From Limnephilus marmoratus (taxonomy: Eukaryota; Arthropoda; Insecta; Trichoptera; Limnephilidae), in assembly GCA_917880885.1 (NCBI GenBank), contig OU862907.1, positions 69,559,072 to 69,623,071 of the forward strand: DNA of 64,000 nucleotides. Reading direction: 5' to 3'. A program made the position numbers and the translations under genes. The notes under the pieces are model-generated. The model was not told where the DNA came from, did not search any database, and saw nothing but the letters and a program-made list of their open reading frames with translations. Positions 2,906-60,720 of the stretch are shown here, piece after piece; position 1 is the stretch's first letter; the number at the start of each line of letters is the position of its first letter.

Positions 2906-3369
2906 AAATAAGAATGTCTGTATGTGGTGGACGAGCGGGCTGGCAAGCGGGCGGTGTGGATTAGATTTGTATGCAAATCTACAGTTTTATGTCGAGGTTG
3001 ATGAAATTTTGCACATGTGACTTTCAAAATAATAGGAAGATTTTCAAAACGAGAGGTGATTTCGAAAGCTCTATGTAAAGCCCTATGGACTTGAGCTAGT
3101 ATAATATATAATAAAGACCGCGGAAGATGAAATGTCCAGTCCTGCTACCTGCTAGTAGGACGGAGGTCCGTCCAATACACCGGGCCGCGCGTCATAATAT
3201 ATGTTGTGTACACGCTTTGTTCACTTGCGTCGTTAAGATTCTGACTATAGGTAGGAGTATTTTGAATTGATCGTGGTTCATTCTTCTTCTCAAATCAGTT
3301 GTTCATTGCTGAGGATCATGTTCCCTACTCCAACTTCCATAGTGGACCTTGCTCCTTCACTCCTCGTGC

Positions 3370-4875
3370 TTCTGCGCTGCATGGAGACTTGGAGAGACTA
3401 GGACACCCTAGTACCAGACACTGATACTTGCTCACTCCAGCGCTGCGGTGACCTTCCCCTTCCCCTTCCCCTGCTTCTTCTGGCAAACACTGCGGCCAGT
3501 GACTATGAGTTTCTCCAAGTTGAAGTCCTCAGTTTGGCGAGCAAAGTATCTTAAGATACGTTGTAGGCAGATAGTTGAGATCCTATTGTGGATGGCTGCT
3601 CTTATAGAATGAACTGTCTCCCTGTCCATGGAATCCTGACCATTTTTCACCAGCACCACATTTCAAGGGAGATCTAGTTACCAAACATGGCAAAAACCAT
3701 TTAGTCTTCCTCCAAGGTGACGATTGCATTATATCTATAATCAACATTACTTCTGCGCTGCATGGAGAGTTGGAGAGACTAGGACACCCTAGTACCAGAC
3801 ACTGATACTTGCTCACTCCAGCGCTGCGGTGACCTTCCCCTGCTTCTTCTGGCAAACACTGCGGCCAGTGACTATGAGTTTCTCCAAGTTGAAGTCCTCA
3901 GTTTGGCGAGCAAAGTATCTTAAGATACGTTGTAGGCAGATAGTTGAGATCCTATTGTGGATGGCTGCTCTTATAGAATGAACTGTCTCCCTGTCCATGG
4001 AATCCTGACCATTTTTCACCAGCACCACATTTCAAGGGAGATCTAGTTACCAAACATGGCAAAAACCATTTAGTCTTCCTCCAAGGTGACGATTGCATTA
4101 TATCTATAATCAACATTACTTCTGCGCTGCATGGAGAGTTGGAGAGACTAGGACACCCTAGTACCAGACACTGATACTTGCTCACTCCAGCGCTGCGGTG
4201 ACCTTCCCCTTCCCCTGCTTCTTCTGGCAAACACTGCGGCCAGTGACTATGAGTTTCTCCAAGTTGAAGTCCTCAGTTTGGCGAGCAAAGTATCTTAAGA
4301 TACGTTGTAGGCAGATAGTTGAGATCCTATTGTGGATGGCTGCTCTTATAGAATGAACTGTCTCCCTGTCCATGGAATCCTGACCATTTTTCACCAGCAC
4401 CACATTTCAAGGGAGATCTAGTTACCAAACATGGCAAAAACCATTTAGTCTTCCTCCAAGGTGACGATTGCATTATATCTATAATCAACATTACTTCTGC
4501 GCTGCATGGAGAGTTGGAGAGACTAGGACACCCTAGTACCAGACACTGATACTTGCTCACTCCAGCGCTGCGGTGACCTTCCCCTTCCCCTTCCCCTGCT
4601 TCTTCTGGCAAACACTGCGGCCAGTGACTATGAGTTTCTCCAAGTTGAAGTCCTCAGTTTGGCGAGCAAAGTATCTTAAGATACGTTGTAGGCAGATAGT
4701 TGAGATCCTATTGTGGATGGCTGCTCTTATAGAATGAACTGTCTCCCTGTCCATGGAATCCTGACCATTTTTCACCAGCACCACATTTCAAGGGAGATCT
4801 AGTTACCAAACATGGCAAAAACCATTTAGTCTTCCTCCAAGGTGACGATTGCATTATATCTATAATCAACATTAC
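3370..4875. repeat. Four-copy tandem array, ~375-bp unit with an inner hexamer
   Basis: Copies start at 3370, 3751, 4120 and 4495 and end at 4875, giving lengths of 381, 369, 375 and 381 bp. The length differences are exact multiples of 6 and are explained by an embedded CCCCTT hexamer present 3, 1, 2 and 3 times. Outside the hexamer the copies are nearly identical; one visible difference is GGAGACTTGG versus GGAGAGTTGG in copy 1. High identity implies recent amplification or homogenisation. Confidence 0.95.
3432..4784 (-). pseudogene. LINE reverse-transcriptase C-terminal fragment repeated in each array unit
   Basis: On the minus strand each array unit encodes the same ~72-75 residue frame containing CLQRILRYFAR and EDFNLEKLIVTGR, followed by a variable GKGKG stretch from the hexamer. 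This resembles the tail of insect endonuclease-reverse transcriptase proteins, where a C-terminal RRIL.fFgH..R.....EKLVvTGKveG segment precedes the end. The catalytic RT domain is absent. The four copies are at about 3432-3659, 3813-4028, 4182-4403 and 4557-4784. I infer that a LINE fragment was captured in a tandemly amplified unit. The family assignment is from memory of the motif. Confidence 0.55.
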
Positions 4876-4930
4876 TAGGCCCTGCGGGCGGCTTTTGGTT
4901 CGGCTTTACCCAGTTAGTGTTGGTGGTAAT

Positions 4931-7960: not shown

Positions 7961-8236
7961 ATCACACAGACTCACAGACAAATATAGGTATATATAGATT
8001 ATCTCTCAGAGCTTCAGGCGTCATAAGTATCTCATTTGTACAGCATTCAGTCTCAGTAGGTACAGTTTTCAAGCAGCTCGCGTGCCACCTATATAATGCC
8101 AGAGCTCACCAGTATGGCAGTATATACAGAAACCTTTGCGAGCGTGTTTACAACAACTTCCCAAAGATTCATCGCAATCGGATGAATGATTTAGGAAATA
8201 ATTTCAAAACTATTACCTACTAGCCTACTATTATAT

Positions 8237-9380
8237 TTAGAAACCATCGCGGGCATGCGCACAATAACTCACTACAATTTCATGGCAATCGGATGAATGG
8301 TTTAGCAACATGACGCCAGAGCTCACTATTGTATATTGGAACCATCGTGAGCATGCGCACATCAAATCCACAAAGTTTCATGGCAATCGGATGAATGGTT
8401 TAGCAACATGACGCCAGAGCTCACTATTGTATATAGGAACCGTCGTGGGCATGCGCACAATAACTCACTACAGTTTCATGGCAATCGGATGAATGGTTTA
8501 GCAACATGACGCCAGAGCTCACTATTGTATATAGGAACCATCGTGGGCATGCGCACATCAAATCCCCAAAGTTTCATGGCAATCGGATGAATGGTTTAGC
8601 AACATGACGCCAGAGCTCACTATTGTATATAGGAACCATCGTGGGCATGCGCACAATAACTCACTACAGTTTCATGGCAATCGGATGAATGGTTTAGCAA
8701 CATGACGCCAGAGCTCACTATTGTATATAGGAACCATCGTGGGCATGCGCACATCAAATCCCCAAAGTTTCATGGCAATCGGATGAATGGTTTAGCAACA
8801 TGACGCCAGAGCTCACTATTGTATATAGGAACCGTCGTGGGCATGCGCACAATAACTCACTACAGTTTCATGGCAATCGGATGAATGGTTTAGCAACATG
8901 ACGCCAGAGCTCACTATTGTATATAGGAACCATCGTGGGCATGCGCACATCAAATCCCCAAAGTTTCATGGCAATCGGATGAATGGTTTAGCAACATGAC
9001 GCCAGAGCTCACTATTGTATATAGGAACCGTCGTGGGCATGCGCACAATAACCCACTACACTTTTATAGCAATCGAATGAATGGTTTAGCAACATGACGC
9101 CAGAGCTCACTATTGTATATAGGAACCATCGTGAGCATGCGCACATCAAATCCCCAAAGTTTCATGGCAATCGGATGAATGGTTTAGCAACATGACGTCA
9201 GAGCTCACTATTGTATATAGGAACCATCGTGAGCATGCGCACATCAAATCCCCAAAGTTTCATGGCAATCGGATGAATGGTTTAGCAACATGACGCCAGA
9301 GCTCACTATTGTATATAGGAACCATCGTGGGCATGCGCACATCAAATCCCCAAAGTTTCATGGCAATCGGATGAATGCTC
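8237..9380. repeat. 98-bp satellite array, twelve units in two alternating types
   Basis: TTTCATGGCAATCGGATGAA (or close variants) recurs at 8278, 8376, 8474, 8572, 8670, 8768, 8866, 8964, 9062, 9160, 9258 and 9356, exactly every 98 bp with no indels. Units come in two types after GCATGCGCAC: type A has AATAACTCACTACA and type B has ATCAAATCCCCAAAG. The order is A B A B A B A B A B B B, a 196-bp higher-order repeat that ends in B units. A more diverged unit lies upstream (about 8120-8200), and dispersed relatives occur at 59555-59767 and 62990-63215. Confidence 0.97.
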
Positions 9381-9411
9381 TTTTTTATATATTTTTTATG
9401 ATTATTTTTGA

Positions 9412-9475
9412 CAGGGGATAACCAGAGAAAACCAGAAATATGTCATTTTTAAATAAGATTTAAGACGTATTGACT
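9412..9475 (+). repeat. Dispersed repeat, pair with 12265-12335
   Basis: ATAACCAGAGAAAACCAGAA here matches ATAACCAGAGAAAACCGGAA near 12275; both continue with ATATGT and GTATTGACTC. The two copies lie on either side of the hAT-like element at 9820-11934. Confidence 0.7.
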
Positions 9476-10599
9476 CTTTTACATAAAAAATTTAAAATCG
9501 ATTTCGAGAGATTGTTGTTTTATCTAATAAACGCATGTTTTAAATTTTCCAAAAAAATATAATTTTTAGTATAATAAGGCTATTATACTATAGGTTGTTG
9601 GCAGATTTGTTAAATTTTCAAAAAAGATATTGTACCAGTATCTATGTGTATCCCCTGACTGAAAGAATCCTGAAGATCTTCATACAAAAAGTTAAAATTT
9701 TGCAAAAAAAAAATTTTTCAGCTACTACTCATTAACGTCTATAACTTAGCATATTTTTCAATCTTAGCGCTCCAGCTCACTGAAAACTCACGGGCTCACT
9801 GGTCTCCATGTGTAATAAACAGAGCCGGATTAAGCATGTCGGGGCCCCTAGGCAATCCACGTCTCGGGGCCTCCTTGTTCCTTTGATCACATCCTGAATG
9901 TTTTTGTTTTTCTGAATGTACGTTGTACGTTTTTATGTTTTTCTGAATGTACGTGTCGAAAGCATTGTGTCAAAATTTCAAGTAAATCGGAGCAAAACTA
10001 ATGAAGATACAGAGTTTCAAGCGACTGGCCCTCATGCTCGATTCAAGTATATTTCGAGTATAAAATTTTTAAGTAGGTTTTCTCGCAATCAACATTTCTA
10101 AAGTTCGTGAACATCATAACTCAAAATCTTGACTTGACGTGACCGATGCTTTTGAAATTTTGTAAACTATTTCTACCCATAAATCAACAGATAGTCAAAG
10201 GGAGTTTTTTACCATATTATAATAACAAATTCACCGAAATTTTTTAGCAAAAATTGCGTTTTTCACTTCAAAATGCTGCCAAAAATAAAAGAAATCGAAA
10301 TAACTCCCTCTGACTACCTAGGAAAAAATACTACCTTTTTAAACGCATTTCGATTTTTTTGTTTCAAATGATCCGGTGACGAGTAATTTTTTCCGAGGCG
10401 CCTCCGGAGATTCACTCTCATGGACTTATTTATTGATATTTTTAATTGAAATTTTTTTCAGATACTTTAGATGTTATACTATAAATAAAAATACTTTGAT
10501 ATAAATAAAACCAACATTTTTCATATCTCAAAAAAAAACATGACAATACGTCTTTATTTCGCCTTTAAAAAGATACCCCCTCCCCCCTTAAAGCACCAG

Positions 10600-21141: not shown

Positions 21142-21589
21142 CATAGGCTCGCGCTTTGCAGAAGTACCCCTTGAACGTTGGTGCATTTCTTTGCAGCTTC
21201 GTGTATTCTTATATAAGGATTAAATGATAATTTTGAATTATACACGCAACATCACTCTCTTTTCCGCTCCATCTCGTGTAAACCACTTCTTTCTAGCATT
21301 TTTATTAACTTCAGAAAAAATTGTACAATGTTAACCAGTGGGTATTTAGCCCGACATCAGTGTGAAAAAACCCTTATATCTATTTAATAAAAACATTCAC
21401 ATATTTAATTTTATGACAATTGTATGGACGCGAGTCCAGCCTTTCAATCTATATATTTTTATTTAAAGTAGCTCTAGCAGGACTCGCGTAAATTAATATT
21501 AATTATACACAAAAATATTTACAAACAGATAATTAGCCAGCCATTTGAGAAGAAGCTCGTTGATTGGCTGTCCGTGCGCCATTTATTTA
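21142..21589. other. No recognised gene between two elements
   Basis: AT-rich sequence between the Harbinger-like element and the 3' tail of the LINE; nothing coding recognised. Confidence 0.4.
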
Positions 21590-21958
21590 TTAATTTATTT
21601 ATTAATTTTCAACGCCCTGATGGGCTTTTACATTACAAGTTTGTAATACAGAGACAGGTTTTTTAAAAACAAAATATACACTATAAAAATAAATAAATAA
21701 CAAGTAATACAGATAAATTAAGGAAGATAAAACATTACGATAAAAGAGAAAGTTTTTAAGTTGTAAACAGCGTAGAAAATAAACTAGTAGGTAGGTACTC
21801 GTATGTTAGTAATTAATTGTGATGTGTAAATAATACATGACAAAATGCAAGATACATAAAAATAAAACGGTAACTAGTTATTACATTGTGGTTAAATATA
21901 GAAATACACAAATATACGCATTAGCCCCTAGGTGATGCTCCTTAAATATCGAAATATT

Positions 21959-24841
21959 CTACATAAAAGTATTGTTCAGGTATTTCTTAAATAATGGTAA
22001 ACTTGTGTTAAATATATCGATATTGGAGGTGAATTTGTTTCCTAATGTGTGAAGTCTAGAAATAGGTGCATGTATGTGGTAGTTCGTTCCAGAATTATTG
22101 TTGCAGAATAATATGTTTTGCCTTGTTGCTCGATTGGGTACCCTGAAATCGATGAGATGCAGGAGTTCGCAACAATCTAATTCAGAGTGAATAATTTTAA
22201 ACAAAAAAGTTAAGTCATTTATTTTTCTTCTGTTTTCTAGGGAATGCAATTTAAGTGTGTTTAGTAAGGATGTATAGTTAATGTGTTGAGTAGGTATGTG
22301 TAATTTGAAGTTGATAAATCTTAAAAATTTGTGCTGCACTCTTTCGATATTTTTTATATGAATTTGATAATAAGGGGACCAAACAATGGAATTGTATTCC
22401 AACAAGCTGCGTACGAGTGACAAATATACGATTTTTATAACTTCCAACGAGTTGAAGTCTTTGATTGTTCTGATTATAAATCCTAGTGTTTTCATGCCTT
22501 TGTTAGTTATTTGTTGTATGTGATTTATAAAATTTAATTGCGTGTCAAACACAACTCCAAGATCTCTAATTTCATTGACTTTTTCTAATATGTTGTTATC
22601 TATTGTGTACTTGAAAGATAGTGGGGTCTTTGTTCGACAAAACGTTAGTGTCTTACATTTGTCGATATTGAGGAATAAGTTATTTGTGACACACCAATTT
22701 TGTAATTTGTCTATGTTTGACTGTAGGATTAGGCAGTCACCTATATTGGATATTTCTTTGTATAATTTGATGTCATCGGCAAAAAGCAGAACTTCTACAT
22801 CGTTGAAACAGCTTATGATATCATTTATGAATATTAAGAAAAGGATGGGACCGAGATGACTCCCTTGCGGTAGACCACTAGTTGCATATAATAACTTAGA
22901 TATAGTATGTTTAATTTTAACAAATAAGATTCTGTTAGATAAATAACTTGAGAACCAATCCAACAACTTGCCTCTCAGTCCTAAGGCATACAGTTTACTA
23001 AGTAATAATTTATGTGATACTTTGTCGAAAGCTTTTGAAAAATCTGTGTAGATACTGTCAACTTGTTTTTTTCTTGTAAAAGATTCTATAATATAGTTAT
23101 GGTAAAGTAACAGGTTGGTAGCAGTTGACCTACCAGAAACAAATCCGTGTTGGTTTTTATCAATTGCTTTTAATATTGATGGATAAATTAAATCAAGAAC
23201 AAGGGATTCAAAGATTTTCGGGAGCGCTGATTGTATGCATATAGGACGGTAGTTTTTAATGTCTGAGTCGTCACCTTTTTTGAGAATCGGGGTAATATAA
23301 CTAGATTTCCAACGGGTTGGAAAATGTCCAGAAGAAAGTAGGTGGTTAAATAATGTGGTGAGTGGACCTGATATTGCAGATGCGCATTGTTTGAAAAATA
23401 TTGGTGGGATGTTATCTGGGCCTGCAGATTTGTTAGGGTCAAGTGAAATGATTTTATTTAAGCATGATTCCTGTGTAATGGTGTAGTTCTGTAAATTTAT
23501 TGTGTTTTGATATGTGTACGATGGTACGTTGTTATCTGATATTTCACCTTCGTATACACTTTGGAAATGATCCGCAAACAAATTAACAATATCAAAGGTG
23601 CTATTGGCTATTTTGCCATCATAATGCATTGTGGGGGGGTAGTCTGTACTTTCATTGTTTAATTTTTTAACAAAATTCCAAAGATTTTTTGTTCCTAGCG
23701 CAGTTTTCTCAACGGAGGTGATGTGTGCTTTATAGCATAGTTTAGATAGTGTTTTACATTTCTTTCTTGTTTCTGAGAAGTTTGAGTAGTCGTTGATTTG
23801 GTGAGTGAGTTTAAAAATTTTGTGTAGCTGTTTTTTTTGTTTCAGTAAGAGTATAAGGTCTGTGGAGAACCAAATTGGATATGTTCTGTGTTTTGGTGTA
23901 TATGAGGGGACATGAGATTTTATAAATTCAGAAAATGTTTCATAGAGTTTTTCTAGTATTTGTTCGCTATCACTGTTATTAGTCAAGAAAGTCCAATCTG
24001 TATTAGTGAGTTGGTAGTTAATAGAATCGTAATCGGCTTTTTTGAAGTTGAGTGTCGTTTGTTTCTGTGGTGGTTTGTTTGTGTACATATTTACTGTAAT
24101 GTGTAAGGGGGGGTGATAATTATCCACCGGTACGAGCTGATCGTCTGACATTTCAACACACAGTTTAGAGCTGTTTGATAGGGCAAGATCTAGAAGGCGA
24201 TCACATATATTGGGTACAAAATTGTGTTGATGCAAATTTAAATAGTTTATCATATCTATTACTTCACGTGCTGGGTCGTTAGAACTTTCGTTAGTAATAT
24301 AACCATTGTCACTAGAGTTCCATTTCAAATTGGGAAGATTATAATCGCCGACGATAATTATTTTCGATGTAGGATTTTTTGACATGAGAAATTCGACGTC
24401 TTCGCAATGTTTCTTATAGGTTTGGATGTCGGAGTTTGGTGGTATGTATACAGTTCCAATGATGATTTTTTCCATGGGAGTAACAATTTGTATAAATAAT
24501 TGCTCCAATGAGGTATTTTTCGTGCTTAGTTTTTTCACGGATATATTTTCCTTGATTGCAATCAAAACTCCGCCTCCTCTGGATTTGGTACTGGATTTTG
24601 GGTTTCTGTCACGGCGAAATATCTTGTGGTTTGTGAAACCAAGTTCAGGAGATTTTATTTCTGGAACGAGCCATGTTTCGGTAAGGATGAATATATCATG
24701 TCCGTGTAGAGGTACCGTTACTTTAAGCTCATGCAGTTTTGTACGAAGTCCTCGTGTATTTTGATAATAGATTTTGATTTCGTCAGGGCATTTGGTCCGG
24801 CGTTTTTGGCTAGTTCGGCCATATCCAATAGTGGATTTTAG
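21959..24841 (-). CDS. LINE ORF2: APE-type endonuclease and reverse transcriptase
   Basis: About 960 codons are open when read from the end of ORF1 in the -1 frame. The first ATG in this frame is over 120 codons in (a TTG at 24565 is only an alternative start), and endonuclease motifs lie upstream of it: YYQNTRGLRTK (residues 25-35) and LTETWL (53-58, catalytic Glu). They are followed by GDYN (165-168), LDLALSN and DNYHPP (about 240). The RT follows with TPILKKG, NQHGFVSGRS, SIYTDFSKAFDKV, GLPQGSHLGP and FADD (687-690). The C-terminus has SLVRSLLEYNSIVWSP and ENRRKINDLTFLFK. CR1/Jockey-group by motif pattern. Entry probably depends on a -1 frameshift at the ORF1 stop. Looks intact. Confidence 0.92.
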   Translation of the reverse strand, partial: LKSTIGYGRTSQKRRTKCPDEIKIYYQNTRGLRTKLHELKVTVPLHGHDIFILTETWLVPEIKSPELGFTNHKIFRRDRNPKSSTKSRGGGVLIAIKENISVKKLSTKNTSLEQLFIQIVTPMEKIIIGTVYIPPNSDIQTYKKHCEDVEFLMSKNPTSKIIIVGDYNLPNLKWNSSDNGYITNESSNDPAREVIDMINYLNLHQHNFVPNICDRLLDLALSNSSKLCVEMSDDQLVPVDNYHPPLHITVNMYTNKPPQKQTTLNFKKADYDSINYQLTNTDWTFLTNNSDSEQILEKLYETFSEFIKSHVPSYTPKHRTYPIWFSTDLILLLKQKKQLHKIFKLTHQINDYSNFSETRKKCKTLSKLCYKAHITSVEKTALGTKNLWNFVKKLNNESTDYPPTMHYDGKIANSTFDIVNLFADHFQSVYEGEISDNNVPSYTYQNTINLQNYTITQESCLNKIISLDPNKSAGPDNIPPIFFKQCASAISGPLTTLFNHLLSSGHFPTRWKSSYITPILKKGDDSDIKNYRPICIQSALPKIFESLVLDLIYPSILKAIDKNQHGFVSGRSTATNLLLYHNYIIESFTRKKQVDSIYTDFSKAFDKVSHKLLLSKLYALGLRGKLLDWFSSYLSNRILFVKIKHTISKLLYATSGLPQGSHLGPILFLIFINDIISCFNDVEVLLFADDIKLYKEISNIGDCLILQSNIDKLQNWCVTNNLFLNIDKCKTLTFCRTKTPLSFKYTIDNNILEKVNEIRDLGVVFDTQLNFINHIQQITNKGMKTLGFIIRTIKDFNSLEVIKIVYLSLVRSLLEYNSIVWSPYYQIHIKNIERVQHKFLRFINFKLHIPTQHINYTSLLNTLKLHSLENRRKINDLTFLFKIIHSELDCCELLHLIDFRVPNRATRQNILFCNNNSGTNYHIHAPISRLHTLGNKFTSNIDIFNTSLPLFKKYLNNTFM

Positions 24842-25560
24842 TTTTTTGAGACATTTACTATTGCTGGCTTATTGTTTATGAACTTTATAGTAAGTCCGAC
24901 TTCGCCTTCCAGGGTACGGTTAGCCAGGGTTTGTCTAAGATCATTTAGGTATTGCCTTTGTAGAGGGGTTTGGTCGGAATAGATTTTGCAATCAGTGTGT
25001 GTTAGAGCTATATTTTTTCTACGCAATATGTTTAATACAATCAACGGATCATTAAGGATTACTTTCATAGGTCTTACTTTATTTGGTTTTACTGCGCCAA
25101 TGCGGAAGACGTTGACAGAGTTTTCAACAAGTGTGGTATCGATTTTGTTGAGAATTTTTAGAACTTCCATTTTATCCTGTTTAATCCGGTCAATTTGATT
25201 CACCATGACACTTTCGGGGACATTTGTGATGATTAAATTTTTTGCTCTCACCTTTCTTTCTTCTAACTCGTCGGCTGCTTCGCACATTTGGGCTACTTGT
25301 GTCCCATTTGGCAGGGACTGAGGCGGAGGCTGGAGCGGCTGGTTTTCTGAGATGCGTTGGAATGTTTTAAGTTCACCTTCCAAAAAGCCTGTTCTCGCTG
25401 CAACAAGGCTTATGTTGCCCAGTAGTTCCGAAAGTTTTGGAGATAGTTTCCCCATCTGTTCTTTGGTGAACTTATTTGTTGGATCCATTATGGTGGTATG
25501 TAGAGAATTGATAATGTTGTTTGCTGCCGTGATAAATGAGTATGTATCACAGGTATCCAT
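24838..25560 (-). CDS. LINE ORF1: RNA-binding (RRM-like) nucleocapsid protein
   Basis: 240 residues from ATG at 25560 to TAA at 24838. The N-terminal third is helical and linker-like, with a proline-rich segment near residues 75-85. The C-terminal half has KNLIITNVPES, VFRIGAVKPNKVRPMKVIL and IYSDQTPLQRQYLNDLR, the pattern of ORF1 proteins of CR1/Jockey-type LINEs, which bind element RNA in the ribonucleoprotein particle. No CCHC zinc knuckles are visible. The last codons read TCA AAA AAC TAA: the heptamer A-AAA-AAC sits directly on the stop, and ORF2 continues in the -1 frame. Confidence 0.85.
   Translation of the reverse strand: MDTCDTYSFITAANNIINSLHTTIMDPTNKFTKEQMGKLSPKLSELLGNISLVAARTGFLEGELKTFQRISENQPLQPPPQSLPNGTQVAQMCEAADELEERKVRAKNLIITNVPESVMVNQIDRIKQDKMEVLKILNKIDTTLVENSVNVFRIGAVKPNKVRPMKVILNDPLIVLNILRRKNIALTHTDCKIYSDQTPLQRQYLNDLRQTLANRTLEGEVGLTIKFINNKPAIVNVSKN
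24841..24847 (-). promoter_or_regulatory. Candidate -1 ribosomal frameshift heptamer
   Basis: On the minus strand A AAA AAC (positions 24847 to 24841) sits in the ORF1 frame just before TAA. Slippage by -1 bypasses the stop and enters the open ORF2 frame at CTA. A-AAA-AAC is a classical slippery heptamer. No stimulatory hairpin or pseudoknot was demonstrated. Confidence 0.7.
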
Positions 25561-26010
25561 TTTTACTGCTTCGAGATGTGTGGTTTGAAAAAAGGTTTAG
25601 CGGCCCTGCGCTGTGTAGGCGGAGTTCGTAGACTCAGCTGTCAAACAACACACACAGACAACAGAGTTCGGACTAAGTGATCGGTGGTAGTCAAATGATT
25701 GTTATGACAGAAACTTAGTATTATAAAAATCAGATTTAGGTAAACACTGACGTTCTAAAACAACTTGAAACTTCTCAACTTCACTGCTAGTGTAATTCCG
25801 TATGTGTGAGCACTGTTTTTTTTGTCAAAAACGTTTAGATTGTTTACTTATTTAATTTTTAAAAAGGAGCGAATATAAGGGCGTGTCTCTGTACGGAGAT
25901 AGTATTGTTGAGAAGTAGAGTGGGGGGGCGGGGTGTTTTGAACGGGCCTTCCGTTGGTCTCGAATGGTCAGGGAGGGGGTAACGTCGTAAATACCTGCAG
26001 CATGTGGAAC

Positions 26011-29929: not shown

Positions 29930-29990
29930 CATTAGCTGCACTGAGGAGGCCCTAAGAAAGTAATTTTCCTATTGTTTCCCTGTGGAGCAA
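29930..29990 (-). other. Degenerate LINE-type 3' hairpin at the palindrome border
   Basis: ACATTAGCTGCACTGAGGAG, then GGCCCTAAGAAA and TTTCCCTGTGGAGC. It corresponds to the inverted form of the 14066-14134 hairpin and has an inverted partner at 34590-34635 in the other arm. Confidence 0.55.
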
Positions 29991-29994
29991 CACT

Positions 29995-31310
29995 TTACTC
30001 CACTATGATTCACAAGCTGACTCATAGTGGAATAAAACCTCTTTCATGTTCCGAATGCAGTTATACAAGTTCTCAAAGGGGAAGATTTAAAAATCCACAG
30101 TATGATTCGCAGAAGTGAAAAACCTTTTCATGCCCTGACTGAAACTATTCGTGTCCTCAAAATGGATATCTAAGAAGTCACTCGCTGACTCATAGTGGAG
30201 AAATACCTTTTTCGTGTTCTGACTGCAACTATTCACGTATTACGAAGAGAAATCTAAAAATCACATGTTTACCCACAGCGGAAACAGACCTTTTTCATGT
30301 ACTGACTACAAGTATTCCTCTTCTAAGAGTAAAAAGTAACTAAAACGGCACTTGCTAACTCACAGTGACGAAAAACCTTTTTCTTGTCCTGACTGCGACT
30401 ATTCATGTGCTACACAACGGTATCCAAAAATTTTACATGCTTACCCACACTGGACTAAAACCTTTTACATGTCCCGACTGCAATTATTCATGTTGTATGA
30501 AGGAACTTCTTAGAAATAATTTGCTTACTCCAAGTGACATAAAACCTTTCCATTGTAATTATTCATATTCTACAAAGAGGCGCCAAAAAATCACATGTTT
30601 ACGCACAGCAGACAGAAACCATTTTCCTGTCCGGAATAAAGTTATACAAGTTCTCAAAAGGACAATTTAAAAATTCGCCGTATGATTCACAGAAGAGAAA
30701 AACCTTTTTCATGTTCTGACTGCAACTATTCGTGTTCTGAAAAGGGATATTTAAGAAGTCACTTGCTGACTCGACTCATAGTGGGGAAAAACCTTTTTCA
30801 TGTTCCGACTGCAACTATTCAAGTACTACGAAGAGAAATCTAAAAATCACATGTTTACCCACAGTGGAAACTACTACTACGATATTCAAGTACTACGAAG
30901 GGAAATCTAAAAACCACATGTTTACCATTTCATGTCTTGACAGCAACTATTCTTCTTCTCAAAAAAAAAAACTTAAACGGCACATGCTAACTGACACGGA
31001 TGAAAAACCTTTTTCATGTCCCGACTGCAATTATTTATGCTGTACAAAGGAACTTCTTAGAAATCATATACTGGCTTACAGTGATATATAACCTCTTACA
31101 TGTTTCTACTGCGACTATTCATATTCTAAAAAGAGGCACCAAAAAATCACATGTTTACATACAGCAGACAAAACCATCTTCCTCTTCCGAGTGCAGTTAT
31201 TCAAGTTCTCAAAAGGAGATTTAAAAATGCACAGCGCGATTCGCAGTGGAGAAAAACCTTTTCCATGTTCCGAGTGTGACAAGGCATGTACTACGAAAAA
31301 TATCTATATG
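29995..31310 (+). pseudogene. C2H2 zinc-finger array, left arm, broken
   Basis: Successive 84-bp-type modules encode KPFSCPDCDYSCATQR, KPFTCPDCNYSCC.KELLRN, KKLKRHMLT and similar. Each has Cys-x2-Cys and a KPF linker, and many have the His pair. Stops and frame changes occur every few hundred bases (open stretches 30365-30670, 30864-31091, 31000-31224), so no single protein can be read. About 15 finger-sized modules fit. Zinc fingers of this kind bind DNA in nuclear proteins. The array is copied inverted at 33110-34560. Confidence 0.8.
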
Positions 31311-33109: not shown

Positions 33110-33850
33110 TCAAATAAAATAATAATATAATAATAAAGATAATTTTCGTAGTACATGTATAGTTACACTCAGAACATGAAAAGGTTTTTCTCCACTTTGA
33201 ATTGCGCTGTGGATTTTTAAATCTCCCTTTCGAGAACTTAAATAACTGCATTCGGGAGAAGAAAATGGTTTTGCCTGCAAACATGTGATTTTTTGGTGCC
33301 TCTTTGTAGAACATGAATATTTGCAGTAGAAACATGAAAGAGGTTTTATATCACTGTGAGTTAGCAAATGATTTCTAAGAAGTTCCTTTGTTTAACATGA
33401 ATAATTGCAGTCAGGATATGAAAAAGGTTTTTCTCCTCTGTGAATCATTCAGTGGATTTTTAACATGTAAAAGGTTTTGCCACTTTGAATTAGCAAATGA
33501 TTTCTAAGAAGTTCCTTTGTACAACATGAATAATTGCATTCGGGACATGAAAAAGGTTTTTGACCAGTATGGGTAAGCATGTGAATTTTTGGATTCCGTT
33601 GTGTAGCGCATGAATAGTCACAGTAGGGACAAGAAAAAGGTTTTTCATCACGGTGAGTAGTTAGCAAGTGCCGTTTTAGTATTTTTTTTCAAGAAGTGGA
33701 ATAGTTACACTCAGGACATGAAAACGGTGTTTCTCCATTGAGGGTTAGCTTGTGATTTTTAGATTTCTCTTCGAAGTACATGAATAGTTGCAGTCGGAAC
33801 ATAAAACAGGTTTTTCTTCACTATGAGTCAGCAAGTGACGTTGTATTTGC
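33110..33850 (-). pseudogene. C2H2 zinc-finger array, right arm, part 1
   Basis: Minus-strand modules: KPFSCPYCDYSCATQRNPKIH, KPFSCPECNYSCCTKELLRN, KPLSCFYCKYSCSTKRHQK and FSSPECSYLSSRKGDLKIH. Open stretches are 33449-33667, 33110-33367 and 33087-33335, in different frames. Same finger types as the left arm, in inverted order. Confidence 0.8.
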
Positions 33851-34075
33851 GTTACGAAATACTTGAACACCCCCTAAACGAAAAGGGTTGCCTAATTGGA
33901 AAATTTTAATTCCCTAGTTTTTTTTATTTAAATAAAGAAAAACATGTTTAGTAACTCGTTGTTCGAACCCCCCCCCCCCCAGTAACGCACCGTAACGTTT
34001 CACAAGACCCCCCCCTCACCCCCCCCTCACCCCCCCCCCCAAGTGCGTTACTTGAACGGCCCCTAAGTTTACTGC
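33840..34075 (-). mobile_element. MITE-like repeat with long C tracts, copy 2
   Basis: GCGTTACGAAATACTTGAAC at the left and CAAGTGCGTTACTTGAACGG at the right. C tracts occupy 33968-34040. It interrupts the right-arm zinc-finger array. It may be two overlapping copies of the 29528 family. Confidence 0.5.
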
Positions 34076-34284
34076 TAAAATGTAATAATATTACACATAG
34101 ATAGGTATACAATATATAAACTAAACCTAGACTTTTCATAAAGAACTGGCCATAAGTAGGTATAACATATTTTAGCAACACTATTGTCAGCAAGCCCCAA
34201 TTAACTATTTTGAATTTCTATTTTTGAAGTTTTTCAGTGATCAAATTGACCAAATTCCTTAAAAACGTAAACATACTATAAACA

Positions 34285-34560
34285 TTTTCAGATGTAGGTT
34301 TTTTTTACTGTGGGTAAATATATGACTTTTAAGACATGCCATTGTAGCACATGTGAATTTGTAGATACCGTTTTGTAGCGCATGAATAGTTGCAGTCGGA
34401 ACATGAAAAGGGTTTTTCTCCACTAAGAGTCAGCAAGTGACTTCTTAGATGGATTTGTGGATTTTAAAATCGTCTTTTTGAGAACTTGTATAATTGCATT
34501 CGGGTCATGAAAAAGGTTTCACACCACTACGAGTCAGCTTATGAATCATATTGGAGTAAA
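34285..34560 (-). pseudogene. C2H2 zinc-finger array, right arm, part 2
   Basis: Beyond the MITE insertion the minus strand again encodes finger fragments: CATGAATAGTTGCAGTCGGA on the plus strand is the reverse of a CSDCNYS codon run, with the KPFS linker next to it. No long open frame. Confidence 0.6.
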
Positions 34561-34759
34561 GCGTTGTTTCAGACGGCAGACTTATAAAAACTATTTTCCT
34601 CAGGGTCTCCTCAGTGGATCTAATGTAAAATAAGAATGTGTTGTAAATCCATGTAGGTATATTAATTATAAGACAATGTCAAATTGTGGAGATCCGGAAG
34701 GAATACAATAATAATAATAATTTAAAAATTTTTATACATAAATTAATAACACTATTTCG

Positions 34760-35232: not shown

Positions 35233-35899
35233 TGTTATGATAAAATATTTGTTAATATTTCTCGCAGTTTATTTTATCATAGATTTAGGCAAGCAGGTAC
35301 CTAATTTCAAGAGGTGATTAAATAATATTTAAAAATAATAATAAATTTCAACAAAGATTTATTTTTTTAAATTTTGGAAGTAACATCATTCATTTTTTCT
35401 TTTTTGAAATGGGTATAAAAATCGAATATTTTGTTTAGGGCCCACTTCTTAGTTATCTTTCAAGGTGGTAGAGGGTTTAACTGACGAGTCGGTCGTGATT
35501 TCATTTGATATTATTTCGTATAATTTAATTAAGAAATACGAAGGTTATTGTCCGAAACTGGAACATAATTAACTGGGCTGCGATCATCGTTATCGTGATG
35601 CCCATAAGTGTATTTAATAACACATTTCTAACGTCGTAATTTACACGAAAATAACCGATGGATAATTTCAAATTTTAATTGCCAAGTAACAGGCATCTTA
35701 TGTAAACATATGGAAGAAAAATATCCTAAAGGAAATCAATCTGATAAATAATGAAGATTTATTATTCTCGCCTTGATATACAAGATATTTATGGCTGGAT
35801 TTGATTTTGGGAGCAAATAAACATTTCGGCTGAATACAGTACCAGGTATTTTGTCTGTCTATACTACAGGAGAAAAACCAGAAGCACAAGATCGTAATT
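35233..35899 (+). mobile_element. LTR-like direct repeat, copy 1 (667 bp)
   Basis: It starts TGTTATGATAAAATA and ends AAGATCGTAATT, and appears identical to 39635-40301. A TATA-like GGGTATAAAAATCG lies near 35410 and an AATAAA near 35816, both expected in an LTR. The 3' end lacks the usual CA. No tRNA-complementary primer site is obvious after it. A purine-rich GGTCCGGGAGGTAA precedes the second copy. Confidence 0.65.
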
Positions 35900-39634: not shown

Positions 39635-40301
39635 TGTTATGATAAAATATTTGTTAATATTTCTCGCAGTTTATTTTATCATAGATTTAGGCAAGCAGGT
39701 ACCTAATTTCAAGAGGTGATTAAATAATATTTAAAAATAATAATAAATTTCAACAAAGATTTATTTTTTTAAATTTTGGAAGTAACATCATTCATTTTTT
39801 CTTTTTTGAAATGGGTATAAAAATCGAATATTTTGTTTAGGGCCCACTTCTTAGTTATCTTTCAAGGTGGTAGAGGGTTTAACTGACGAGTCGGTCGTGA
39901 TTTCATTTGATATTATTTCGTATAATTTAATTAAGAAATACGAAGGTTATTGTCCGAAACTGGAACATAATTAACTGGGCTGCGATCATCGTTATCGTGA
40001 TGCCCATAAGTGTATTTAATAACACATTTCTAACGTCGTAATTTACACGAAAATAACCGATGGATAATTTCAAATTTTAATTGCCAAGTAACAGGCATCT
40101 TATGTAAACATATGGAAGAAAAATATCCTAAAGGAAATCAATCTGATAAATAATGAAGATTTATTATTCTCGCCTTGATATACAAGATATTTATGGCTGG
40201 ATTTGATTTTGGGAGCAAATAAACATTTCGGCTGAATACAGTACCAGGTATTTTGTCTGTCTATACTACAGGAGAAAAACCAGAAGCACAAGATCGTAAT
40301 T
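39635..40301 (+). mobile_element. LTR-like direct repeat, copy 2 (667 bp)
   Basis: Same length and apparently the same sequence as copy 1, including the same 63-residue minus-strand frame. After the identical block the two copies still share TCTTGTATTT..GGTC.ATCC and ATTTGTCCCA at much lower identity, which simple LTR borders do not explain. An ATGGTCGATCCAAGGAAG followed by GTGAGT lies just downstream. Confidence 0.65.
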
Positions 40302-47159: not shown

Positions 47160-48190
47160 TTATTATGAATAATTGTTAGAAAAAAACTTTAGGTTCGCCT
47201 TAATCACTATAAAAGGAAACATTTTGCATCACGGGTGGCGGAAAATGATGCATTTTAATTTTCAATTGCGTAAAATTAAATTTCACTTCGCGAACCGATA
47301 CGGCGACAATTCAGCGGCCATTCTGTCACTGTTATATTGGTATCCCTGATACAAACAAGAGCTAGATTCGACTGTAGCCGACTTCGTGGGATACATGATA
47401 AGGCGCGTAATTATGAAAAACAGAATTAATAATATAGTGTAAACGAACCTCTAATCAGAACCACAGCTGAGGCACTGGAATGGAGACAAACCATTCAAAT
47501 CCTGGGATGTTTTTTAAAATAAAGATAATATACACAAATCCGCTACACAAACCCTGCTTTGCCGGACAAACCATTCAAATCCTGGGATTTTTTTTAAATA
47601 ACGATAATATACACAAACCCGCTCTACAAACCCTGCATTGCCGGACAAACCATTCAAATCCTGGGATGTTTTTTAAAATAAAGATAATATACACAAACCC
47701 GCTACACAAACTCTGCTTTGCCAGACAAACCATTCAAAACCTGGGATTTTTATAAAATAAAGATAATATACACAAGTCCGCTACACAAACCCTGCTTTGC
47801 CGGACAAACCATTCAAAACCTGGGATGTTTTTTAAAATTATGATGACATGCAGCTCTCGTAGTTTAACCTCAAAGTTCCGTATTATCCGTGAGGTGGACT
47901 TAATGCATTGTCTGTTGTGTTTTCATAATTGCGTGCCTTTTCATGTATCCCACGAAGTCGGCTACAGTCGTATTTAGCTCTTCGCTAATATTATCAGAGA
48001 TACCAACATAACAGTGATGGAATGGCCGCCGGATTGTCACCGTATCGGTTCGCGAAGTGAAATTTAATTTTACGCAATTGAAAAATAAAATGCATCATTT
48101 TCCGCCACTCGTGATGCAAAAAGTTTCCTTTTATAGTGATTAAGGCGAATCTAGAGTTTTTTTCTAAAAATTATTCCATAAATAAATAAC
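47160..48190. mobile_element. Long terminal-inverted-repeat foldback element
   Basis: Arms 47160-47430 and 47925-48190 are inverted copies, with anchors TTCGCCTTAATCACTATAAA / TTTATAGTGATTAAGGCGAA and TAGCCGACTTCGTGGGATAC / GTATCCCACGAAGTCGGCTA. The core between them carries an 80-bp tandem array and nothing coding. Flanks are AT-rich (TTATTATGAA and CATAAATAA), so a target duplication cannot be defined. Confidence 0.85.
47486..47840. repeat. 80-bp tandem array inside the foldback element
   Basis: ACAAACCATTCAAA recurs at 47486, 47566, 47645, 47725 and 47804 (79-80 bp apart). Each unit has CCTGGGATGTTTTTTAAAAT, then ATAATATACACAAA and CGCTACACAAACCCTGC. Confidence 0.95.
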
Positions 48191-59989: not shown

Positions 59990-60720
59990 AACTAACACTT
60001 CCCTAATTTTAAAATATAACGAGCTTGACGTCGGCCAATACAAAACCATCATTAAGGATCTTAAATCGGAATTCGAAAAGAGATTTATCAATTTTAGAAA
60101 ATTGAGAATGTCGTCGACATCCCCACCAACTAACACCAATAATAGGAAGTTTCTTATGAATATTTTGTTGGTGCTAATAAATACCCAGAATTAAAAAAAT
60201 ACCCTTGAAACTTGTCACTTTGTTTGGGTCAACACAAGTTTGTTTGGCAGCATTTTCCAAGATCAACTTCATTAAAAATACCCTTGAAACTTGTCACTTT
60301 GTTTGGGTCAACACAAGTTTGTTTGGCAGCATTTTCCAAGATCAACTTCATTAAAAATACCCTTGAAACTTGTCACTTTGTTTGGGTCAACACAAGTTTG
60401 TTTGGCAGCATTTTCCAAGATCAACTTCATTAAAAATACCCTTGAAACTTGTCACTTTGTTTGGGTCAACACAAGTTTGTTTGGCAGCATTTTCCAAGAT
60501 CAACTTCATTAAAAATACCCTTGAAACTTGTCACTTTGTTTGGGTCAACACAAGTTTGTTTGGCAGCATTTTCCAAGATCAACTTCATTAAAAATAAATT
60601 CCGGAGCAGACTTACCGATGGCAATGAACATCTCCAAGATTTAATGAATAGCTTGCACAAACTTTAGTCCAAACTTCGGACGGATTGCCTTCGAAGGCAA
60701 AAAATGTAATTCTTCTCATC
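59990..60720 (+). pseudogene. hAT transposase C-terminal remnant
   Basis: NELDVGQYKTIIKDLKSEFE and KRFINFRKLR at 60022-60115, and FRSRLTDGNEHLQDLMN at 60599-60650 after the array. These correspond to the late part of EPM2AIP1/Charlie-type hAT transposases (..F..RF.DF.. and ..yRSRLTDehL...lr.a). The unit of the 79-bp array reads FVWVNTSLFGS, the segment that normally precedes the cysteine and RSRLTD part. Confidence 0.6.
60201..60595 (+). repeat. Five identical 79-bp tandem repeats
   Basis: Units start at 60201, 60280, 60359, 60438 and 60517, and look identical: ACCCTTGAAACTTGTCAC... to ...TTCATTAAAAAT. Because 79 is not a multiple of 3, a ribosome reads all three frames in turn; all remain open, giving overlapping 72-73-residue frames that are not genes. 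The unit is a duplicated piece of the hAT transposase. Confidence 0.97.

Follow-up and report, generated by a model that had tools for sequence, protein, structure and literature searches.

How the second of the two open reading frames (ORF1 and ORF2) of long interspersed nuclear elements (LINEs) is translated is a long-standing question that has been discussed in terms of re-initiation and AUG-independent starts, and LINEs are usually thought to restart. Passages of PMC2881922 describe ORF2 translation in L1 and SART1 as dependent on translation of ORF1, and passages of PMC5009743 state that HeT-A gag needs frameshifting and explain TART and L1 otherwise. The non-long terminal repeat elements TRE5-A (DRE) and TRE3-A of Dictyostelium, whose ORF2 requires a -1 frameshift according to a passage of PMC5911963, provide a precedent, but an amoebal one that is likened here by description and not by sequence. 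In retroviral gag-pro/gag-pol, the heptamer A_AAA_AAC precedes a polymerase in the downstream frame and a minority fusion product is expected; PMC5009743, as far as its passages go, lists this heptamer with those at which mammalian ribosomes shift most readily. Here we describe a LINE in a 64,000-nucleotide (nt) stretch of Limnephilus marmoratus DNA (the window) whose ORF1 ends in this same heptamer, and we propose that its ORF2 is very probably translated through programmed -1 frameshifting, as a fusion to ORF1.

LINEs of the Jockey superfamily (the CR1, L2, Daphne and Jockey clades) likewise carry an APE endonuclease and a reverse transcriptase (RT) in ORF2, and their ORF1 types are classified in the passages seen of PMC4120745. 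None of the passages on this superfamily available to us attributes ORF2 expression to a slippery heptamer, and such a heptamer was unreported for Jockey-superfamily ORF2 in the titles and abstract beginnings retrieved by searches of open-licence PMC articles; earlier remarks in Repbase are possible. The passages seen of PMC1925062, PMC9004415, PMC7175516, PMC11125867, PMC4700185 and PMC5391098 had no bearing on how ORF2 is translated.

Results

The ORF1-ORF2 junction

The element is a full-length APE-type LINE of 4.33 kb on the minus strand of the window (21581..25909), as delimited by alignment with 39 genomic copies. A 3' limit at 21580-21585 was common to 34 of these copies, and their 5' limits ranged from 24976 to 25912, indicating variable 5' truncation. 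It probably belongs to the Jockey superfamily (CR1/L2/Jockey group), and a related Sipha flava protein carries the name "mobile element jockey." ORF1, recognized from its frame and its homologues (24838..25560, minus strand), comprises 252 codons from stop to stop, or 240 when counted from the ATG at 25560, and its 240-residue product ends in VNVSKN. The last codons are GTC TCA AAA AAC TAA, with the heptamer A_AAA_AAC at 24841..24847 in the ORF1 frame and the adjoining TAA stop at 24838..24840, the letters and coordinates being exactly those of the initial annotation of this DNA.

ORF2 lies in the -1 frame relative to ORF1 and is open from stop to stop at 21959..24868 (minus strand; 969 codons), of which 960 are counted from the base after the shift, again as initially given. 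Pfam matches above the cut-offs were obtained for both the endonuclease and the RT (PF14529, PF03372 and PF00078). The endonuclease domain starts at 24700..24769, with YYQNTRGL beginning at 24769. YYQN falls at codon 34 of the open frame and LTETWL at codons 62 to 67, so that the former lies within the first 60 residues, where both motifs had been placed, and the latter slightly beyond them. Both precede the first Met of the frame, at codon 132, as had been claimed, and there is no ATG upstream of the endonuclease start.

In the mechanism that we favor, translation would for most ribosomes finish at the stop next to A_AAA_AAC, yielding the ORF1 protein. In a minority, the lysyl- and asparaginyl-tRNAs paired with AAA AAC would slip one base back to AAA AAA; these ribosomes would bypass the stop and translate 960 more codons, producing a fusion of about 1,200 residues that would contain both the endonuclease and the RT.

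Conservation among copies of the family

The genome (1.63 Gb in 67 contigs) was searched with 401 nt around the junction, and the best 40 of 173 candidates, namely, the window copy and L009 to L047, were examined. A_AAA_AAC was kept in all 40 copies, and in each of them the ORF1 frame was open for at least 49 codons upstream of the heptamer and ORF2 was open at -1 for at least 162 codons. The expectation that related copies would share the heptamer and the frame relation was therefore borne out, and no intact copy with a different junction was found among the 40. The copies form two subfamilies. In subfamily A (27 copies, 99 to 100% identical to the window), TAA adjoins the heptamer, while in subfamily B (13 copies, 93 to 94% identical) CAA replaces this TAA and ORF1 stops 24 nt later; the heptamer is thus constant and the stop variable. 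One base near the junction is private to the window copy and alters an ATG-starting frame 15 nt past the ORF1 stop. This ATG was rejected as an ORF2 start, since it lies in the ORF1 frame, where the other 26 copies of subfamily A read ATG GCC TAA; in the window copy, the frame is open longer.

Survey of endonuclease starts

A search for the endonuclease-start motif, blind to the heptamer, gave 2,401 matches in the genome and 5 in the reversed control. The 100 places listed, all on one contig (C1), were all examined (L048 to L144, L155, L047 and L027). Within the 110 nt upstream of these starts, AAAAAAC was distributed over the three phases as 52 : 3 : 3, the first being the phase required for a -1 shift. 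The corresponding distributions, in the same order, were 10 : 0 : 1 for TTTTTTA, 9 : 20 : 8 for AAAAAAA and 1 : 0 : 1 for AAAAAAG. When a site was counted strictly, that is, only if preceded by 12 or more open ORF1 codons and accompanied by an open ORF2 frame, it was present at 43 of the first 99 places and in 16 of 28 clusters formed at 88% identity. It was also present at L155, which was added later and left unclustered; the number of clusters depends on the threshold, falling to 23 at 80%. The candidate frameshift site of the initial annotation is not peculiar to one element: many LINE lineages in the genome carry it. The count of stops by frame (0 of 182 codons versus 23 and 14) was not used as evidence, an open ORF2 having been a condition for selecting the sites.

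The rest of the first 99 places comprised 12 with U_UUU_UUA in the right phase (2 clusters), 37 with no site and an ORF2 ATG within 45 nt, and 7 with neither. Ten clusters were devoid of any site: nine hold ATG-type places (one of them also a place of neither kind), with zero places carrying the strictly counted site, and the L105 cluster has neither site nor ATG. Phase-correct AAAAAAC outside the 43 places and L155 occurred at L058, L069, L081, L090, L108 and L116, which all belong to the L054/L058 cluster at the 80% threshold, and at L104 and L142.

Nucleotide-level constraint at the site

The letters AAAAAACTAA are not rare by themselves, occurring twice in the window, with 1.68 occurrences expected from shuffles; what goes beyond chance at the site is the phase, the conservation and the fixed synonymous positions. 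Codon choice was examined in 17 representatives from the 16 clusters, with L075 and L055 treated separately on account of their different junctions. The Asn slip codon was AAC in 17 of 17, compared with 23 of the 101 Asn codons that precede it in these ORF1s; the Lys slip codon was AAA in 17 of 17, compared with 77 of 105. The preceding codon also ended in A in every representative; where it encodes Pro, it was always CCA (12/12, versus 9/28 upstream). A conserved Asn about 12 codons upstream was encoded by AAT in 10 representatives and AAC in 5, with His once, and a conserved Pro near it used CCT, CCC, CCA and CCG; third positions are thus free nearby and fixed at the slip site. When synonymous codons were redrawn according to the ORF1s' own usage, the heptamer appeared in 5 to 7% of draws per representative, odds that are not to be multiplied across lineages because the lineages are related.

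As the 17 representatives had been picked for having the site, a reverse check starting from the ORF1 tail was needed. Fifty places were defined by their tails: 48 matched a protein pattern, and L111 and L155 were added to them. In 46 of the 50, the heptamer was retained in frame with ORF1. The other four (L085, L086, L123 and L142) are lesions, with cluster mates that keep the heptamer. Wherever the A6 run was intact and in frame with ORF1 among the 50 places, the next base was C.

Position of the ORF1 stop and ATGs of ORF2

The ORF1 stop followed the heptamer directly (0 nt) in 9 of the 17 representatives, with TAA, TGA and TAG all found; in the remaining 8, the distance was 3 to 57 nt. In two representatives, the stop falls within the frame that encodes the endonuclease, by 22 nt in L075 and by 34 nt in L077, so that a ribosome terminating there would need to move backward before it could translate the whole endonuclease. 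Six of the 44 site-bearing places, all in one group (the L055/L063 type), had an ATG of ORF2 located two codons ahead of YYQN; L072, a close copy of this type, did not.

Other families and evolution

An RT tree was built from 120 public proteins and 10 rows of this genome, with no Repbase references; among the 10 RT stretches taken, L057 gave no match and L059 was too short, and 8 entered the tree. The window family and subfamily B fell into one clade (support, 0.91) with L097, L055, L053, L099 and L058, a grouping that unites subfamily B with five site-bearing rows. The order inside this clade was not resolved; L062, a damaged fragment, fell elsewhere, and L061 (U_UUU_UUA) and L067 (ATG) were outside it. 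L058 has an ORF1 of another kind and a candidate U_UUU_UUA site, and in L058-like copies AAAAAAC is still present in phase, beyond the ORF1 stop and 30 nt upstream of the endonuclease. This pattern would be consistent with ORF1 having been exchanged and the slip site replaced, an idea that is a lead only given the positions of L062, L061 and L067 in the tree.

L054, L058, L061 and their relatives (12 of the first 99 places) have a different ORF1, cysteine-rich by eye, that ends in T_TTT_TTA, the HIV-type heptamer, in the -1 phase. Because 11 of the 12 places also have an ORF2 ATG that overlaps the site or lies downstream of it, these sites are regarded as candidates only. In L108, of the L058 family, an ORF1-type frame and the endonuclease occupy one continuous open frame, which apparently arose by a deletion at the junction. 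The public protein P0126 joins the N-terminus of the window-family ORF1 to a cysteine-rich C-terminus and is a possible ORF1 recombinant.

Among public proteins, Lys-Asn was found at the same place in 5 of 6 ORF1 homologues, the P0126 chimera being left out of the alignment. Of 120 stored public ORF2 proteins, 75 show the endonuclease start, and 3 of these N-termini (P0003, P0025 and P0082) reach a KKL that fits the -1 reading of the heptamer at the level of protein records only. The closest public records, with 91 to 93% identity, may belong to this or a closely related species. No relatives of the element were found in viral contig or genome contig searches, which yielded no second species at the DNA level.

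ORF1 fold and other features of the window

The predicted model of ORF1 was of low confidence (pLDDT, 58; pTM, 0.30). Human L1 ORF1p chains ranked 3, 9 and 12 against it (E values of 0.12 to 0.25), tentatively suggesting a weakly L1-ORF1p-like fold; L1-like (type II) ORF1s comprise a coiled coil, an RRM and a C-terminal domain. The sole Pfam match of ORF1 was below its cut-off, a sequence search of the PDB with ORF1 gave no meaningful match, and an Rfam scan of 21500-26000 gave none.

Elsewhere in the window, two 300-nt direct repeats (35233-35532 and 39635-39934), 100% identical and 4,402 nt apart, look like the two ends of a young long terminal repeat element. Two mutually inverted arrays of approximately 84-nt units (29956-31292 and 33144-34598) resemble, by eye, degenerate C2H2 zinc-finger repeats. 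Further tandem arrays were present at 8124-9501 (98-nt units), 3369-4882 (about 375 nt), 60116-60675 (79 nt) and 47485-47881 (79 to 80 nt).

Discussion

In the window element, ORF2 follows ORF1 in the -1 frame and has no ATG before the endonuclease, and the heptamer at the end of ORF1 is conserved at the nucleotide level across many LINE lineages of this genome. From these features we infer the shift itself and its efficiency, and the comparative evidence supports the fusion by programmed frameshifting that the initial annotation had put forward. Several points weigh against this interpretation. All of the DNA evidence comes from one genome, the lineages compared are related, the 17 representatives were chosen for carrying the site, and the tail pattern was written from tails seen beforehand. 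The phase distribution of AAAAAAT at the 100 listed starts (17 : 6 : 2) is also biased, and this bias is seen in the large ATG-type L067 family without an open ORF1 there; shared ancestry can thus yield a phase bias, which alone is no proof. L104, a place in an ATG family, likewise has AAAAAAC in phase and no open ORF1. Places of the L055/L063 type could in principle restart at their ORF2 ATG. Finally, the stem-loop or pseudoknot that had been predicted downstream was not found. Scans of 60 nt in 20 sequences detected no stem-loop, the z-scores of minimum free energy ranging from -2.2 (L098) to +2.5 (L063) and tending overall slightly toward less structure than in shuffles. A scan of 90 nt for simple H-type pseudoknots gave no candidate in 15 of the 17 representatives; the L075 candidate was equalled by 16 of 60 shuffles and the L129 candidate was reached by 0 of 60. 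These scans covered 60 to 90 nt downstream, and long-range structures lie outside their reach.

The shift may be aided by the nearby stop instead of by an RNA fold. In pea enation mosaic virus, a stop near the slip site can matter without a 3' fold, according to a passage of PMC5009743. Given this effect and the adjacency of the stop in 9 of the 17 representatives, the stop codon right after the heptamer is the first candidate stimulator. The virus resembles the arrangement proposed here in having the stop beside the slip site, but it is a plant RNA virus and uses another heptamer.

Termination at the ORF1 stop followed by a restart would be in keeping with other LINEs, either without an AUG, as for mammalian L1, or at an AUG, as at the UAAUG of SART1. 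The lack of an ORF2 ATG in the window element is compatible with the former, since an AUG-independent start is thought likely for L1 in passages of PMC2881922 and PMC5009743, as is the coincidence of stop and junction in just over half of the representatives. However, the stop varies in position from 0 to 57 nt past the heptamer and in L075 and L077 even falls within the endonuclease frame, whereas the heptamer shows no change, synonymous letters included. The ATG that lies 15 nt past the stop offers an AUG restart little help, being in the ORF1 frame and closed after ATG GCC in the other subfamily A copies. We consider re-initiation of either kind improbable.

Slippage on the run of six A's during transcription or reverse transcription could also join the frames, because one added A would give an identical fused product. 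Six A's are short for polymerase slippage. Moreover, slippage would require neither the C that invariably follows the intact run at the 50 tail places nor the fixed codon phase seen at the 100 listed starts, and this explanation appears very improbable. Least credible, to the point that we would be surprised if it held, is that the slippery appearance is accidental, arising by chance or from a need for Lys-Asn at the ORF1 C-terminus. Lys and Asn are indeed conserved as residues too, and the letters alone are not rare, but AAG, AAT, CCT and CCC, which are common elsewhere in the same ORF1s, are absent from the site in 17 of 17 representatives.

The frameshifting proposed here would thus share with retroviruses its heptamer and the location of the polymerase downstream. 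It would differ in that the host element is a LINE, that no fold was found downstream in most lineages and that the stop often adjoins the heptamer. It is conceivable, though we lean against it, that structure-free, stop-coupled -1 frameshifting is how a whole animal LINE lineage ordinarily makes its endonuclease-RT, fused to ORF1, and that the slip site was replaced, A_AAA_AAC by U_UUU_UUA, when ORF1 was exchanged.

If ORF2 is expressed in this way, the ratio of ORF1 protein to polymerase would be set at elongation, and the enzyme would begin with an ORF1 portion that could keep it attached to its RNA. The many natural slip sites with no evident downstream fold would allow the contribution of stop codons to -1 frameshifting to be tested, and annotating ORF2 from an internal ATG in these families would lose the N-terminus of the endonuclease.

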